Assembly (NCBI GenBank): GCA_017539105.1 | Contig: JAFYHQ010000020.1 | Span: 1-64,000, forward strand | Length of the DNA: 64,000 nucleotides | Source of the DNA: Erysipelotrichaceae bacterium | GTDB lineage: Bacteria > Bacillota_I > Bacilli_A > Erysipelotrichales > Erysipelotrichaceae | Direction of reading: 5' to 3' | Shown here: piece after piece, positions 7,779 to 18,912 of the stretch | Numbering within the stretch: position 1 is the first letter of the stretch | Layout of the letters: each line of letters begins with the position of its first letter | The notes under the pieces: generated by a model | Seen by the model: the letters and a program-made list of their open reading frames with translations, nothing else | Database searches by the model: none | What the model was told of the DNA's origin: nothing | Position numbers and translations under genes: made by a program

Positions 7779-9128
7779 ATGTCTTTGAATTATAATATCT
7801 TTCTGCACGAAACCGATAAGAATGCGCTGAACGCTTTGAAATCCATTCCGGGTTTCACACAGCTGCTGAAATCGTACATGAAAGTGTGGAACGAAAAATT
7901 CTTCTATATGCAGAATATGTCCACGCTGGTACATATCACCGATCAGCAGCTAAGCAAATACAAAGACATGCTGATACCGATCTGCAGGAAGCTGGACATC
8001 GAAGTACCGGATCTGTTCCTGCAGCTGAATCCATATCCGAATTCCTATACGAGCGGAGATACGAAACCATTCATCGTAATGACATCCGGATTGCTGGAAA
8101 CCTTGCCGGATAGGCTGATTCCGACCATTCTGGCGCATGAATGCGGGCATATCGCCTGTCACCATGTTCTGTACCGTACGATGGGCCAGATGATCCTGAA
8201 TGGCGCTCTGTTTACATTGCTGGGGAAGGGAGTCAGCGCCTTGCTGACACAACCGATACGGGCAGCCTTCTACTATTGGATGCGCTGCAGTGAATTTTCG
8301 GCAGACCGGGCAGCCGTTCTCTATGACGGTTCCCCCGATAACATGATGGAAGTCTGTGCAAGACTGGCCGGTTTCAGCAAAGCGATCGATGAACCGATCA
8401 ATATGGAAGCCTTCATGCAGCAGGCGGAAGAATATCGCAAGCTGGTCAACGAGAATGCCGTAAACAAAACGATGGAATTCATGGCCTTCGGCTACAGTAC
8501 CCATCCGCTGAATGCGGTCAGAGCCTATGAAGCATCTGTATGGGCTTCTTCTGAACAGTTCACGAAAGCCGTAAACTATTGCGAAGCCTATCAGCGCGGC
8601 GACGCTTCTTTCGAAATCCCTTTGTTCTATAATGAAAAACACTATCTGAATCGTAATTATCAGGAAGTGCTGAAAGAACTCGAGGAACAGGGACTGAAAG
8701 CTACTTCGGTCCGTTCCAAGGATAAGAACGGAACGTTCAAAGAAGGAGGTGTCACATCTGTCAGCATCGATGATTCCCATAGCTATAAAGAAGACGACTG
8801 GGTCAGGACCGACGCGAAAGTCGAGGTCGCATACTATCAGCCTCTGACAGACGAAGAAATCGCCCGTGAACATCCGGGTCAGGTATGCATGCCGGAGAAT
8901 TACATCTATTATATCGGTAAGGACTACAAGGAAGTCGAGATGGAACTGATGAAAACCGGTCTGGCAGACATTACAACGATCCCGCAGAAAGATATCAGAA
9001 AAGAGAACGATCGCGCATTGCACAGAGTATCCGCCCTGCGGATCGATGGCAAAACAAAATTCAGCAAGGGCGACTGGTTCGATATCGCATCCGATGCGGT
9101 CATCATCTATCACGAAATGGCCGACTGA
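7779..9128 (+). CDS. M48-family metalloprotease with two C-terminal PASTA-like repeats
   Basis: The zinc motif HECGH (residues near 119-123, in AHECGHIACHH) and the third ligand region SEFSADRAA place it in peptidase family M48. Unlike HtpX it has no clear transmembrane hairpin; one modest hydrophobic stretch follows the active site (near 135-155). After residue 280 come two related repeats, each beginning N/DYxEVxxEL and ending in a KxxDW plus V-I/A-YY/H strand. They resemble the PASTA-like ligand-binding units seen in several Firmicutes proteins. AAGGAGG sets the start. The unit ends at the hairpin at 9139. Confidence 0.85.
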   Translation: MSLNYNIFLHETDKNALNALKSIPGFTQLLKSYMKVWNEKFFYMQNMSTLVHITDQQLSKYKDMLIPICRKLDIEVPDLFLQLNPYPNSYTSGDTKPFIVMTSGLLETLPDRLIPTILAHECGHIACHHVLYRTMGQMILNGALFTLLGKGVSALLTQPIRAAFYYWMRCSEFSADRAAVLYDGSPDNMMEVCARLAGFSKAIDEPINMEAFMQQAEEYRKLVNENAVNKTMEFMAFGYSTHPLNAVRAYEASVWASSEQFTKAVNYCEAYQRGDASFEIPLFYNEKHYLNRNYQEVLKELEEQGLKATSVRSKDKNGTFKEGGVTSVSIDDSHSYKEDDWVRTDAKVEVAYYQPLTDEEIAREHPGQVCMPENYIYYIGKDYKEVEMELMKTGLADITTIPQKDIRKENDRALHRVSALRIDGKTKFSKGDWFDIASDAVIIYHEMAD

Positions 9129-11096: not shown

Positions 11097-13088
<1,992 letters not shown>

Positions 13089-13791: not shown

Positions 13792-15069
13792 ATGAAAAAC
13801 GATATCGTAAGATGCGAATGTGTGGATATGGCCATCGATGGCTCCGGGATCGCCAAATGCGGAGATTTGGTGGTTTTCGTCAAGGAAATGATCAAAGGCG
13901 AAATCGCAAACGTCAGGATCACGAAAGAGAAGAAATCTTACAGCTATGGGATCATCGATGAATTGATCGAAGCATCTCCTGAAAGAGTGGCATCGGATTG
14001 TCCGATCGCATACAAATGCGGGGGTTGCGATTTCAGGCATATCAGCTATGATTATCAGTTGAAACTGAAGAAAGAGATCCTCACAAACATTCTGAAGCCA
14101 TTTGAGGTCCTGGACATCGTTCCTGATGAAGTCCACTACTATTACCGCAACAAGGTCCAAATCCCTTACAGAGACGCTAAAATGGGCTTCTACCGCAAAT
14201 ATTCCAACGACATCGTAGAATTCGATGACTGCCTGATTGAATCCAGGACAGCGAACCAGATCATCAAAGATTTGAAAGAACTGCTGAAAGAGTATCCACA
14301 GGCGGAAAAGATTCGTCACATTCTGATCAAACAGAATCATACGCAGGATGAAACGATGCTGGGATTCATTGCCTATGAGAAGATCGATCAGACTGAAATC
14401 ATAAACACCCTGGTGAAAAAGTATCCTTCGATCTGTTCCGTCATTCTGAATATCAATGAGAAAGAAACCAACGTCATCCTGGGAGAAGAAGAGATCCTGC
14501 TTTATGGAAAACCTTATATCATGGACGAATTCTATGGAATCAGCGTAAAGGTCTCCTTGAAATCCTTTTATCAGGTGAATTACAGACAGATGCTGAAACT
14601 GTATGAACTGATCCGGGAACTGTCCGGATGCAATGAAAACAGCAGGGTGCTCGATCTGTATTGCGGGATCGGTACGATCTCTTTGTTTATGGCAAAATCT
14701 GCCAGACAGGTTACCGGGGTCGAGATCGTCAAGGAAGCCGTATTGAATGCGGTAGACAATGCATTGAACAATGGGATTGGAAATGTTGACTTCGTCCTGG
14801 CGGATGCTTCCAAAGGAATGGACCATTACCTCAAAGACAAAGACATCGTCATCGTCGATCCGCCTCGCAAAGGACTCTCAAACGAGCTGATCGATTCCCT
14901 GATTCAAAATAAGACAGAAAGGATCGTCTACGTTTCATGCAATCCTCAGACTTTGGCAAGAGATCTCAAACTGTTTGAGAAAGACTATCATATCAGTGAG
15001 ATCCATCCTGTCGATATGTTTCCATATACGATCCATTGCGAATGCGTGGTGCGTCTGGATAAGAAATGA
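13792..15069 (+). CDS. rlmD: 23S rRNA (uracil-C5)-methyltransferase, RlmD/RlmCD type (copy 1)
   Basis: Methylates uracil C5 in 23S rRNA using SAM. The order is an N-terminal TRAM/OB domain (residues 1-60), a 4Fe-4S motif C-x5-C-x2-C (CPIAYKCGGC) with a fourth Cys in FDDCLIES, and a Rossmann SAM domain (DLYCGIGTISL from residue 288). Then come DPPRKGLS and the catalytic YVSCNP with Cys383. This is the most canonical of three tandem paralogs. The start is unusual: ATG lies 5 bases beyond the preceding terminator, with no Shine-Dalgarno and no correctly placed -10. Another in-frame ATG at 13828 would shorten the TRAM domain. Confidence 0.9.
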   Translation: MKNDIVRCECVDMAIDGSGIAKCGDLVVFVKEMIKGEIANVRITKEKKSYSYGIIDELIEASPERVASDCPIAYKCGGCDFRHISYDYQLKLKKEILTNILKPFEVLDIVPDEVHYYYRNKVQIPYRDAKMGFYRKYSNDIVEFDDCLIESRTANQIIKDLKELLKEYPQAEKIRHILIKQNHTQDETMLGFIAYEKIDQTEIINTLVKKYPSICSVILNINEKETNVILGEEEILLYGKPYIMDEFYGISVKVSLKSFYQVNYRQMLKLYELIRELSGCNENSRVLDLYCGIGTISLFMAKSARQVTGVEIVKEAVLNAVDNALNNGIGNVDFVLADASKGMDHYLKDKDIVIVDPPRKGLSNELIDSLIQNKTERIVYVSCNPQTLARDLKLFEKDYHISEIHPVDMFPYTIHCECVVRLDKK

Positions 15070-16211
15070 AAGAAAAAAAGATCTGTCCCTATCACGAATA
15101 CTGCGGAGCTTGCACAAAGCAAGGTCTTTCTTATGCGAAACAGCTGGAATGGAAACAGAATAAAATCAACAGGCTCTTTCAGAAGATCCATGAAGTAAAA
15201 ACGATCATCGGGACCGATGATCCTTATCATTACCGGAACAAGGCACAGATCAGTTTCGGTTATGATGACAGGCATCATATCATTGCGGGAAACTATGTGG
15301 AATCGACGCATATCATCGTGCCGATCGAGGAATGCCAGCTGGTCGATCCAAAGGCGAATGCGATCTTTCAGACGATCCTGAAACTTGCAAAGAAGTATCA
15401 CTTGTCTGTATTTGATGAGAGAAAGCTATCCGGTTTCCTGCGTCATGTGCTGATAAGAAACAGTCATGACGATACCGAGATCATGGTGGTGTTTGTCACA
15501 GGAACGGACCGTTTCCCTCATAAGAAAGAAATCATCACAGAGCTCACTGACAGACATCCTGCGATCGTTTCCATCATTCAGAATATCAACCGGCGTCATA
15601 CCAGCATGATTCTGGGAAACCATTCTTTTACGCTTTACGGAAAGGATCATATCACGGATGAATTTTGCGGTTACCGCTTCAAGCTGTCCTGCAGTTCGTT
15701 CTATCAGATCAATCATGCCCAGACGGAAAAACTCTATGAACATGCGTTAAAGATGGCAAAGATCAGAAAGACAGATACGGTTCTGGATACCTACTGCGGC
15801 ATTGGAACGATAGGCATCATCGCTTCGAAAGAAGCAGGGAAGGTGATCGGTGTGGAACTGAATAAGCAGGCCGTCAAGGATGCCATCAGCAATGCCAAGG
15901 ATAATAAAGTCAATAATATCTATTTCTACCAGGAAGATGCAGGCACCTTTATGGACAAATATCAGGATGAAGTCGATGTGCTCATCATGGACCCTCCTCG
16001 TTCCGGCAGTGATTTCCGTTTCTTAAGCGCAGTCAACCGCCTTTCTCCGGAACGGATCGTCTATATCTCCTGCGAGCCTGAGACCCAGGTCAGAGATCTG
16101 AAATACCTGTTAAAAAAGAATTACAAGATCACCGATGTGCAGCCTTTCGATCTGTTTCCTTTCACGGACCATATCGAAAATGTCTGTGTATTGAAAAGAG
16201 AAAAACGCTGA
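15066..16211 (+). CDS. RlmD/TrmA-family RNA (uracil-C5)-methyltransferase, copy 2, lacking the TRAM domain
   Basis: A 381-residue paralog that starts directly at the 4Fe-4S region (CPYHEYCGAC, fourth Cys in EECQLVD) and so lacks the RNA-binding TRAM domain. The SAM motif DTYCGIGTIGI and DPPRSGSD are intact. The catalytic loop reads YISCEP (Cys336) instead of the usual SCNP, so the nucleophile is kept but the next residue is changed. It overlaps copy 1 by ATGA, implying coupled translation. Its target RNA cannot be inferred; a different uracil from copy 1 is plausible. Confidence 0.88.
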   Translation: MKEKKICPYHEYCGACTKQGLSYAKQLEWKQNKINRLFQKIHEVKTIIGTDDPYHYRNKAQISFGYDDRHHIIAGNYVESTHIIVPIEECQLVDPKANAIFQTILKLAKKYHLSVFDERKLSGFLRHVLIRNSHDDTEIMVVFVTGTDRFPHKKEIITELTDRHPAIVSIIQNINRRHTSMILGNHSFTLYGKDHITDEFCGYRFKLSCSSFYQINHAQTEKLYEHALKMAKIRKTDTVLDTYCGIGTIGIIASKEAGKVIGVELNKQAVKDAISNAKDNKVNNIYFYQEDAGTFMDKYQDEVDVLIMDPPRSGSDFRFLSAVNRLSPERIVYISCEPETQVRDLKYLLKKNYKITDVQPFDLFPFTDHIENVCVLKREKR

Positions 16212-16214
16212 GAT

Positions 16215-17615
16215 ATGAAAACAAGGATCATGAAGTATGGCATCAATGGGGAAGGGATCGCTTATGTGAAACGTAAGCCTGTTTTCGTGCCGTTGTGCAT
16301 CAAAGAGGAAGTCGTTGATCTGGAAATCACCGAAATGAACGAGCGCTATGGAAGAGGTATCGTCAGGAAGATCATCGAAAAGAGCCCTCAGAGGATCAAA
16401 GCGACCTGTCCTTACCAGAAAGACTGCGGTTCCTGTGTGATGATGCATATGAGCGAAATAGAACAGAACCAGGCCAAGAAAGAGATCCTGAAAGAAGCAT
16501 TGCAGAAGTATGCGGACTATGATGGGGAAGTCCCGGATCTGATCCGGACCAATGAGTTCTATTATCGGAATAAATGCAGTCTGGCTTTCGGTCTTTTTCA
16601 TGGGAAACTGGTCAATGTCATGTATCAGAACGATTCCCATAAGAATGTCTATATCAATGAATGCGTGATTCATGAGAAGGGATTGGAGAGAATCAGGAAA
16701 GAGATCCTGAAAGTCCTGAACAAACATCAATGCGAGCTTTATGATAAAAAGAATTCCAAGGGTTACCGCTATCTGATGATTCGCGGCATCGAGAAAGAAT
16801 ATCAGGTCGTCCTGGTGACAGGAAAAGAAGAGATCCCATCGTCGATCATCGATGAGATCATGAAGATCAAGGGTGTCGTGTCCTTGTATCAGGGAATCAA
16901 TACGGAACGGAATGCCTTGAGTATGATTCCCGAGGATCTGCATCTTCTGAAAGGGAAAGAAGCGATCGATTTCGAATTGCTGGGGCTGAAACTGCAGCTC
17001 AAGCCATCAAGTTTCTTCCAGCTGAATACTAGAACGGCAGAGAAACTCTATGAGACGGTCATAGAGGAAGCGGGAGAAAAGAATGGGCTGATCGTGGAAG
17101 CCTATTCCGGGATCGGCGTGATGGGGCTTATATTAAGCAGAAAAGCCATGAAAGTGGTCTGTATCGACACTGGTAAAAGTTCCATCAGAGATGGACAGAC
17201 GATTGCGCAAGAGAATTATATCGGTAATATTGAATATCGCTGCGAAGATGCCTCGAAAGCCTTGAAACAGATCGTAAAGAAAGAGAAGATCGACTGTCTG
17301 GTCGTCGATCCTCCGCGTGTCGGTCTCAGCAAGGATCTGCTTCAGACGTTGAACAGTCATCCTGCCGATAAGATCATCTATGTGTCCTGCAATCCTGCCA
17401 CGTTAGCCAAGGATCTGGATGTATTGAAGAAGAACTATGAAATAGAGAAGATCCTGCCTTTCGATATGTTCCCCCAGACCCAGCATGTGGAGACGGTATG
17501 CTGCTTGTACCACCAAAAGAAAGACTTCATTTCAGTGCCTTATGAGCCGAAGAATGCGGACTATCTGAAAAAAGATGAAAGTGATGAACAAATCGAGTTT
17601 TGCGGAGAAGAATAA
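16215..17615 (+). CDS. RlmD/TrmA-family RNA (uracil-C5)-methyltransferase, copy 3
   Basis: A 466-residue paralog with a TRAM-like N-terminus (MKTRIMKYGINGEGIAYV), 4Fe-4S motif CPYQKDCGSC with fourth Cys in INECVIHE, DPPRVGLS and the catalytic YVSCNP (Cys392). The SAM motif reads EAYSGIGVMGL, with Ser replacing the common Cys. A charged 45-residue tail after HVETVCCLY is not part of the core fold. It begins 3 bp after copy 2, and the double-GNAT gene starts immediately after its stop. It is probably active, on a substrate I cannot name. Confidence 0.88.
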   Translation: MKTRIMKYGINGEGIAYVKRKPVFVPLCIKEEVVDLEITEMNERYGRGIVRKIIEKSPQRIKATCPYQKDCGSCVMMHMSEIEQNQAKKEILKEALQKYADYDGEVPDLIRTNEFYYRNKCSLAFGLFHGKLVNVMYQNDSHKNVYINECVIHEKGLERIRKEILKVLNKHQCELYDKKNSKGYRYLMIRGIEKEYQVVLVTGKEEIPSSIIDEIMKIKGVVSLYQGINTERNALSMIPEDLHLLKGKEAIDFELLGLKLQLKPSSFFQLNTRTAEKLYETVIEEAGEKNGLIVEAYSGIGVMGLILSRKAMKVVCIDTGKSSIRDGQTIAQENYIGNIEYRCEDASKALKQIVKKEKIDCLVVDPPRVGLSKDLLQTLNSHPADKIIYVSCNPATLAKDLDVLKKNYEIEKILPFDMFPQTQHVETVCCLYHQKKDFISVPYEPKNADYLKKDESDEQIEFCGEE

Positions 17616-18479
17616 ATGGATTATAGAATCGAGAATCTGACAAAAGAAGATGCCGAATATATCGGCAAAAAGATCAATGAAATCGTGCCGCATGAAGTGG
17701 ACGCAGATGAAGAAGAATTTGTTCTTAAAGTTGAGAATGAAAACGGTGAGATCATCGGCGGATGCATCGCAGAGGCATACGAATACCACTGGTCGAGAGT
17801 TTTGCTTGAAGAGCTTTGGGTGGATGAATGCTATCGCCATCAGGGGATCGGCTCTATGATCATCCGCGAGGTCGAACGTATTGCAAGAGAGAAGGGCTGT
17901 CGGGTCGTCACGCTCGGCACCGCCAGCTATATGGCCAGGCCGTTCTATGAAAAACACGGCTACACGGTTTTTACAACACTGAAAAAGGCAAACGGCTATA
18001 TCGATTATTCATTGGTCAAGTACCTTGACAAGGACACGTCAAACTATGTGCCGACAAACAACAGCGGTACGTGGTTCAAGGTTTCCCTCGGCAATGAGGA
18101 CGACGCGGATGCTATACAAGACGGCCTTGACAAATATGACGAAGCCTACGAGCCGAAATACGAAAATGTTGGTTTTTATAAGAAACTTGTGGATAAAGAC
18201 GGCAGGTTTGCGGCAGGCGTGATTGCGGACGTGAACAAAGATGCATATGGCTTCGTTGAGGCACTGTTTGTGGAAGAGCTGCTCAAAAATCAGGGTTTGG
18301 GCACATATCTTTTGAAGGAAGTGGAAAAACAGGCAAAAGAAAACGGCGCTTCCATGATTTTGACAAGCGCAGGCGACTGGAATGTTGATTTCTTTAAGAA
18401 GAATGGCTATCTGGTCAGAGGCGAACTCAAAGATGTTCCCAAAGGACACGACTGCTACGAGCTCTTCAAGAATATCTGA
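17616..18479 (+). CDS. Double GNAT-family N-acetyltransferase
   Basis: A 287-residue protein with two GNAT folds. In the first (residues 1-145) the acetyl-CoA loop reads HQGIGSMII and the exit strand ARPFYEKHGY. In the second (150-287) the loop reads NQGLGTYLL and the end is VDFFKKNGYL. Such proteins acetylate small amines or protein N-termini; the substrate is unknown. ATG follows the previous TAA without a gap. By eye, codon choice (more GAC, GGC and AAC than neighbours) differs from the flanking genes. A decayed methyltransferase fragment follows, consistent with acquired DNA. Confidence 0.85.
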   Translation: MDYRIENLTKEDAEYIGKKINEIVPHEVDADEEEFVLKVENENGEIIGGCIAEAYEYHWSRVLLEELWVDECYRHQGIGSMIIREVERIAREKGCRVVTLGTASYMARPFYEKHGYTVFTTLKKANGYIDYSLVKYLDKDTSNYVPTNNSGTWFKVSLGNEDDADAIQDGLDKYDEAYEPKYENVGFYKKLVDKDGRFAAGVIADVNKDAYGFVEALFVEELLKNQGLGTYLLKEVEKQAKENGASMILTSAGDWNVDFFKKNGYLVRGELKDVPKGHDCYELFKNI

Positions 18480-18483
18480 AGCA

Positions 18484-18759
18484 AAGGACCATTACTTCCT
18501 AAGTGTCGATTTATTCCGCAGTTGACTGTTTATGGAGACGGTTGTCCAGCTTTCCAAGGGAAACATATCGAGTGAGAAGATCCGCGTGGAATTCAATCTG
18601 GAAGACATGGATATGTCTGGGTTCCGGCAAGGAGCTACATATGAAGAGATCCAGGAGTGGGTGCAGGAGAAATACGGTTTCCATGTGACACACCAGTCTG
18701 AACACTATGACGTTGAAATACGAGATTCTGAAGCTGCTGGTAAAAGCCGTGAATATTAA
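18484..18759 (+). pseudogene. Decayed C-terminal fragment of a fourth RlmD-family methyltransferase
   Basis: In one frame the sequence reads VDLFRS-stop-LFMETVVQLSKG (from 18505, stop at 18523-18525). This matches position for position the VDMFPxTxHVETVVLLSK end of RlmD-family enzymes. It continues with EKIRVEFNLEDMDMSGF and ATYEEIQEWVQEKYGFHVTH. That segment resembles the C-terminal extension common on clostridial RumA/RlmD proteins, which normally runs on to a Pro/Lys-rich end. Here it loses similarity after VTH and stops at 18759. The in-frame stop and missing N-terminus mark it as a remnant. I could not identify the sequence from 18760 to 18860. Confidence 0.6.
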
Positions 18760-18883
18760 GAAAATGTGGACCGGTATGAGTACGGAAGAGCTTTCTTCGG
18801 CTATCTGGGACCGGTAGTAAAAGACCGCGGAGAACGCAAGGGTACGGTAGAATACATCTAAATCGATCTTATACATACAAAAG

Positions 18884-18912
18884 AAATGACCGGTTAACCG
18901 GTCATTTATATT
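18884..18912. terminator. Bidirectional terminator
   Basis: Perfect 10-bp stem AAATGACCGG (18884-18893) / CCGGTCATTT (18898-18907) with TTAA loop, flanked by A-rich and T-rich sequence. It lies between the methyltransferase/GNAT operon and the convergent zinc-ribbon gene. Confidence 0.85.

Follow-up and report, generated by a model that had tools for sequence, protein, structure and literature searches.

The window analysed here is a stretch of 64,000 nucleotides from an Erysipelotrichaceae bacterium (assembly GCA_017539105.1, contig JAFYHQ010000020.1, positions 1 to 64,000). It carries three genes of the RlmD family of uracil-C5 RNA methyltransferases in a row, called copies A, B and C below, followed by a short fragment resembling the end of the same family (Table 1). 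Very probably, the three genes are ancient paralogs that were gathered together, and a cassette with a single gene was inserted site-specifically at a glutamate codon of copy C. The preliminary description of this DNA had listed three intact copies beginning at 13792, 15066 and 16215, in agreement with the open reading frames (ORFs), the TIGR00479 scores and the PF05958 matches. It had taken the fragment for a decayed fourth enzyme; the rejoined reading frame of copy C shows a displaced tail instead.

Table 1. Coordinates of the methyltransferase genes, the inserted unit and their neighbors in the window
Feature	Position	Strand	Size or evidence
ligA, first gene of the conserved ligA, small membrane protein, rlmD-A neighborhood	11112..13088	+	TIGR00575, 834 bits
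Copy A, predicted RlmD-family 5-methyluridine (m5U) methyltransferase with TRAM and RlmCD-like specificity residues	13792..15069	+	425 aa; TIGR00479
Copy B, TRAM-less RlmD-family methyltransferase of an order-wide clade	15066..16211	+	381 aa; TIGR00479
Copy C, whole ORF including the replacement tail	16215-17615	+	466 aa
Copy C body as far as the insertion point after HV, with TRAM, Fe-S and methyltransferase domain	16215..17489	+	TIGR00479; junction sequence
Left arm of the insertion site in copy C, TTCGATATGTTCC, 30 nt before GAGAC	17460..17489	+	Junction sequence
Inserted unit, 1045 bp: replacement tail, double-GNAT gene and 3' arm	17490..18534	+	Counterparts in L167 and L110/L144
Replacement C-terminal tail (ETVCCLYHQKKDFISVPYEPKNADYLKK...), ~75 nt of conserved DNA at 108 sites	17490..17615	+	
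Cargo gene with two GNAT domains, starting directly after the tail stop	17616..18479	+	287 aa; Pfam PF00583, two stretches
3' arm of the unit, GTCGATTTATTCC, the 30 nt preceding the second GAGAC, resembling the rlmD arm and holding a TAG	18505..18534	+	
Former tail of copy C, now displaced (ETVVQLSKGNISSEKIRVEF...YGFHVTH) and interrupted after VTH	18535..18693	+	54% to the fused tail of G017; rejoined frame
Nitroreductase-like gene, 3' remnant	18789..18907	+	blastn against sister species G005: 80%, 120 bp, E 5e-26

The unit inserted in copy C

The insertion point lies between HV and ETV of copy C, at a GAGAC whose GAG encodes the Glu that acts as general base in catalysis. In RlmCD, this general base is E443, the Glu in HVETV (PMC6235398), the number being taken from the alignment. 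The codons at the site are therefore hard for the enzyme to lose, and an inserting unit must restore the Glu. The sequence GAGACGGT stands at both junctions in the window and the tail is exchanged, which is the 3'-end swap with a short direct repeat known from integrative and conjugative elements (ICEs) and integrative and mobilizable elements (IMEs) that target rumA. A repeat search of positions 17300 to 18900 did not pick up the 8-nt core, which was too short for it. The unit has no serine integrase of its own, the GNAT gene standing alone between the two sites, and no relaxase or conjugation genes, its 1045 bp leaving space for one cargo ORF. Among the three copies of this genome, the GARAC core occurs in copy C only: copy A ends in HCECVVRLDKK (codons CATTGCGAATGCGTG, with GAATGC) and copy B in HIENV (codons CATATCGAAAATGTC, with GAAAAT).

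Joining copy C up to 17489 with the sequence from 18535 onward gives an unbroken RlmD C-terminus (...FPQTQHVETVVQLSKGN...). The RlmD-end homology of the fragment starts at 18535 and ends near 18693, and P0004 (18532-18756) is 54% identical to the C-terminal extension that copy C carries in another genome (G017, L057). The similarity to the family end reported earlier is real, but the in-frame stop ascribed to the fragment, the TAG at 18523, lies upstream of it within the 3' arm of the unit, which translates as SVDLFRS, stop, LFM. The end of a fourth tandem paralog could have been expected from this similarity and from the position just downstream of three copies, but it is practically ruled out by the junction sequences and the restored frame: no trace of a body is present upstream, the homology begins exactly at GAGAC, the codon where copy C turns to its foreign tail, and body and fragment form a single continuous RlmD end, with like displacement at 21 other sites.

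At the corresponding place, the sister species G005 has copy C, another GNAT gene and a complete nitroreductase-like gene (L051, ORF 7990-8532); in the window this last gene was deleted except for its 3' end. The G005 locus (L051, 8532-10608) has a RimJ-like GNAT cargo behind a like tail in copy C, and its 3' arm ends in CATGTG with no tail beyond. The comparison points to a turnover of cassettes between closely related species. Long tails of some 100 aa (e.g., ATYEEIQ...EKYGF.VT.LNIA...) form the C-termini in L013, L017, L057 and L247 and are found at 18535-18693 of the window. Such ATYEEIQ-type tails are carried by differing kinds of RlmD copy and also occur as orphans (L058, G025 contig 5), and they may represent a second mobile tail family.

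Related units and arrays in other genomes

Counterparts of the whole 1045-bp unit are present in the unrelated Clostridiales genome RUG14416 (L167; 92% identity, 1056 bp), where the unit sits in rlmD beside a long gene looking like dnaE, and in L110/L144 (82% identity). The homology begins at the first GAGAC and stops within about 10 to 20 nt past the second, and the flanks are unrelated. When the flanks in L167 are joined, a normal RlmD end results (...DMFPRCGHVETVVLMSRKDT, then a stop). The double-GNAT protein is 89% identical between the window and L167. A second unit, of 578 bp with a PNPOx-like gene, is ~98-99% identical across several contexts. In L138 and L203 the next unit comes after it, and in L149, L143/L156 and L184 differing short native RlmD tails do (ETVVLLSHHKEK, ETAALLSR and ETAVLMIKK, each closed by a stop). 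Displaced native tails, scanned for as GARAC followed by a short ET..-stop reading frame, were found downstream of 21 sites, and the reverse-strand control gave 1. Most of these tails have GTYGAYHTRTTYC about 30 nt ahead of the core, a motif shared with rlmD itself, and the window has it at both junctions.

In other genomes, the tail of copy C also stands alone as an orphan, flanked by unrelated genes. Its spread was surveyed with a degenerate DNA pattern covering one tail family only, and the counts are a lower bound. Within the order, the pattern matched 28 sites in 23 of 315 genomes; among named genomes, it matched 108 sites on 103 contigs. Among the record titles listed, the hosts are mostly metagenome-assembled genomes (MAGs) from the ruminant digestive tract, including Erysipelotrichaceae, Lachnospiraceae, Oscillospiraceae, Mogibacterium and other Clostridia. 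Aligned at GAGAC, the sites are conserved over ~75 nt on the right. To the left, some sites have the 3' end of an rlmD body (DMFP...HV), and at the others the sequence is unrelated and shares hardly any information. The tail is fused in frame to an rlmD body at 50 of 109 sites, the window counted, and 41 of 47 long bodies are of TRAM length. The tail DNA had no match in plasmid and phage collections, and the viral-collection match was a single contig (L232; IMG/VR 3300021431_000268) with an orphan tail and then a GNAT-like gene; a plasmid or phage origin of the tail was rejected on these results.

The cargo is diverse, with 40 clusters at 50% identity among the 70 sites with a readable first ORF, and several clusters occur both fused to rlmD and as orphans. 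Pfam assigns the cargo to families such as PNPOx, glyoxalase, GNAT, methyltransferase, DUF3795, AadA_C and alpha/beta hydrolase. In 55 cases the first ORF has the same strand as the tail and in 4 the opposite one, at a median of 125 nt after GAGAC. In G012 (L060:5748-7580), copy C runs into a GNAT-like cargo gene to form a 610-aa fusion, which would fit the loss of the stop codon that separates tail from cargo.

At 14 loci, two or more sites follow each other on one strand, mostly spaced by 432-969 bp. The array in L216 has four consecutive sites (glyoxalase, GNAT, methyltransferase and another ORF), and that in L203 also has four, one of which was overlooked by the scan owing to a 1-nt deletion. 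On contig 59 of G003 (97-2020; L053/L161), an AadA_C adenylyltransferase and an alpha/beta hydrolase lead an array of small genes with a tail element after each, which would be an array carrying resistance-like cargo. In many MAGs, contigs end within about 150 nt of a tail element (e.g., G219:C56, G247:C76, G277:C23, G284:C88 and G308:C81). This suggests assembly breaks at a multi-copy repeat.

Origin and predicted targets of the three methyltransferases

Nearly all of 40 related genomes have three long RlmD-family genes, usually at separate loci. Copies A and B are adjacent in several members of the genus, and the contiguous order A-B-C was found only in this genome and in G005, with proteins 84-92% identical. 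In a tree of 88 proteins, where the Escherichia coli references sit on long branches and their placement is unsure, copy B belongs to a TRAM-less clade covering both families of the order and copy C to another clade of the same breadth (support 100/99 for each). Copy A falls in a genus clade (100/99), and its counterpart in the other family groups with Streptococcus pneumoniae RlmCD (96/84). Tandem duplication as the origin of the three copies is ruled out by this tree. Since three copies are the norm in relatives, mostly at separate loci, the cluster is better explained by late gathering, and A, B and C appear to be old order-wide paralogs brought late into one operon behind ligA. The phylogeny called for in the preliminary description yields ancient, distinct paralogs, and the contiguous cluster is not general among the related genomes.

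The statement that Firmicutes usually carry one or two such enzymes does not hold for these relatives, nor for Acholeplasma, in which the YfjO-like COG2265 proteins comprise at least three paralogs, one group lacking TRAM (PMC7226160). By that description they resemble the genes studied here in copy number and in the TRAM-less group, but they belong to another lineage, and the window-type genes are contiguous in two species.

The order ligA, small membrane protein, rlmD-A is also present in L121 and L112. The overlap between copies A and B is 4 nt, the gap between B and C is 3 nt, and the stop of C abuts the start of the double-GNAT gene; because of this spacing, the block from A to the GNAT gene reads as one operon. 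The TIGR00479 scores of A, B and C (354, 345 and 290 bits) exceed the curated cut-off of 183.55, placing them in the RlmD/RumA family (COG2265). All three match PF05958, and no other PF05958 protein was found in the assembly (2.09 Mb, 48 contigs, ~89% complete).

The residue details noted earlier were confirmed. The Fe-S cysteines, DPPR, the nucleophile Cys and the general-base Glu are kept in all three copies; SCNP occurs in A and C and SCEP in B, and YCGIG occurs in A and B and YSGIG in C. Copy B lacks TRAM and copy C has a long tail. For A, B and C alike, RlmCD of S. pneumoniae is the closest relative with a solved structure, and its specificity residues are F145, Q162 and N249 (PMC6235398). 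These positions are F/E/N in copy A, N/V/S in copy B and M/H/A in copy C. Copy A shares the family, the catalytic residues, F145 and N249 with RlmCD (SP_1029) and Bacillus subtilis YefA but has E in place of Q162, whereas B and C differ at all three positions. Copies B and C lack the residues for U747 specificity, and copy A looks RlmCD-like in part.

The genome encodes TrmFO, and m5U54 of tRNA therefore needs none of these three enzymes; a tRNA role by default was dropped. Copies A, B and C are predicted to be 23S rRNA m5U methyltransferases with different targets, copy A probably making m5U1939 and perhaps also m5U747. Specialization on different uracils, as proposed earlier, is plausible, with B and C in separate order-wide clades and A alone keeping F145 and N249. 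The contiguous trio itself is a late gathering of genes that usually lie apart in relatives.

In the other family (L253-L262, L265, L267, L269 and L270), the presumed orthologs of copy C lack F281, Q283 and D381 (RlmCD numbering) and mostly E443, and they look like inactive or repurposed methyltransferases. These losses would fit three enzymes that are redundant or partly inactive rather than specialized. For the window this is rather unlikely, as A, B and C all retain F281, Q283, D381 and E443 along with the catalytic Cys.

Proposed mechanism and relation to known elements

Large serine recombinases (PF00239, PF07508 and PF13408) abut or overlap the sites in L144, L153, L222 and L180, and a recombinase-like C-terminal remnant ends at or in the site in L156. 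In L144 (1520-4903; G217 contig 23), two differing large serine recombinase genes stand in tandem directly upstream of a tail and double-GNAT unit, and this locus is a possible autonomous relative. Because recombinase genes end at the sites, as published for ICEs targeting rumA (PMC4701971), the most likely catalyst would be a large serine recombinase of that type, acting in trans on small circles. The 3' end of copy C would serve as a site-specific landing pad, where a circular one-gene unit consisting of tail, cargo and a 3' end resembling the left arm would recombine into GAGAC between HV and ETV. The unit would give back the Glu codon and supply a new in-frame tail, placing the double-GNAT cargo immediately after the host gene, where both could be co-expressed, and the old tail would be pushed downstream and decay there. 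Equivalent units with dozens of cargos would enter rlmD genes of ruminant-gut Bacillota in the same way and stack head to tail.

Several points weigh against this mechanism. The genome of the window has one weak PF07508 match, on another contig, and elsewhere recombinases, of more than one subfamily, adjoin few sites. In L207, L226, L130 and L154/L174, the unit ends are decayed and the core is missing. The genomes are mostly draft MAGs whose contigs often end at repeats, which makes array lengths and the hosts of short contigs uncertain. Neither a circular unit nor excision or recombinase activity was observed. Several units may be shrunken descendants of ICEs or IMEs and not independently mobile.

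ICEs, IMEs and prophages inserting at rumA/rlmD are already known in the literature. ICEs and IMEs of streptococci and CTn5 of Clostridioides difficile insert into rumA with a single serine integrase (PMC4701971, PMC5704250), rumA and the integrase gene trade their 3' parts in the ICEs (PMC4701971), and the accretion of decayed elements, the cis-mobilizable elements (CIMEs), is known as well (PMC5704250). The window unit resembles the ICEs and IMEs in its target gene, its short direct repeat and the 3'-end exchange that gives rumA a new C-terminus, and in both cases the 3' end of an integrase gene may lie at the attachment site. The units described here differ in that they carry a single cargo, have no recombinase or transfer genes, form arrays and occur in many taxa. 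The window unit could nevertheless be a CIME, that is, a remnant of an element that once inserted in rumA/rlmD with its own serine integrase and of which only the cargo is left, the arrays having arisen by accretion. The known elements and the recombinase genes ending in or at the cassette site agree with this origin, which we consider possible but unlikely. Single-ORF units of 432-969 bp, nearly identical in unrelated hosts behind varied upstream sequence, look mobile as such, and separate decay to identical ends in every host is improbable.

Two further explanations are much weaker. Ordinary homologous recombination between similar rlmD 3' ends might shuffle tails and cargo, the 75-nt tail being highly similar among units; it is very unlikely because unit and displaced native tail have only about 8-9 nt in common (GAGACGGT), e.g., in L167, and the boundaries are fixed at one nucleotide. 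Integrons are known mainly from Gram-negative bacteria. The arrays share their anatomy, with one-ORF cassettes in one orientation (55 against 4) at a common site (L216 and L203), array growth and an upstream gene that could drive expression. A true integron with the tyrosine integrase IntI and attC sites is equally improbable, since none of 57 genomes of the family has an IntI above the NCBIfam TIGR02249 cut-off and the sites fold no better than shuffled DNA (z of -0.9 to +1.2 at five sites), unlike foldable attC. The anchor here is a housekeeping gene, and the candidate catalyst is a serine recombinase. The SCC (staphylococcal cassette chromosome) elements at rlmH of staphylococci likewise use serine recombinases, insert at the end of an rRNA methyltransferase gene and stack, but they measure tens of kb and carry ccr genes, compared with ~0.4-1 kb for the units here.

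A literature search, with most subscription journals outside its reach, found no description of recombinase-less one-gene cassettes or arrays at rlmD. Integron-like arrays of such cassettes at rlmD appear to be undescribed so far, and there is a fair chance that they deserve a category of their own beside the known rumA/rlmD insertions. The chances stand about even that they form a gene-capture platform of gut Bacillota, integron-like but based on large serine recombinases, in which small recombinase-less cassettes recombine at the codon of the catalytic Glu in rlmD and are expressed from the rlmD operon, and arrays grow. As part of such a platform, the replacement tail should keep the methyltransferase active.

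The GAGAC cassette site is a precise, short attachment site in a codon that is not easily changed, and it is directly testable. If the gene-capture interpretation is true, it would constitute an overlooked one-gene transfer route between families in ruminant-gut Bacillota, anchored in a housekeeping gene, with a transferable cargo that includes GNATs and an AadA-like adenylyltransferase. Stray C-terminal pieces of RlmD, like the fragment in the window, would be accounted for as well.

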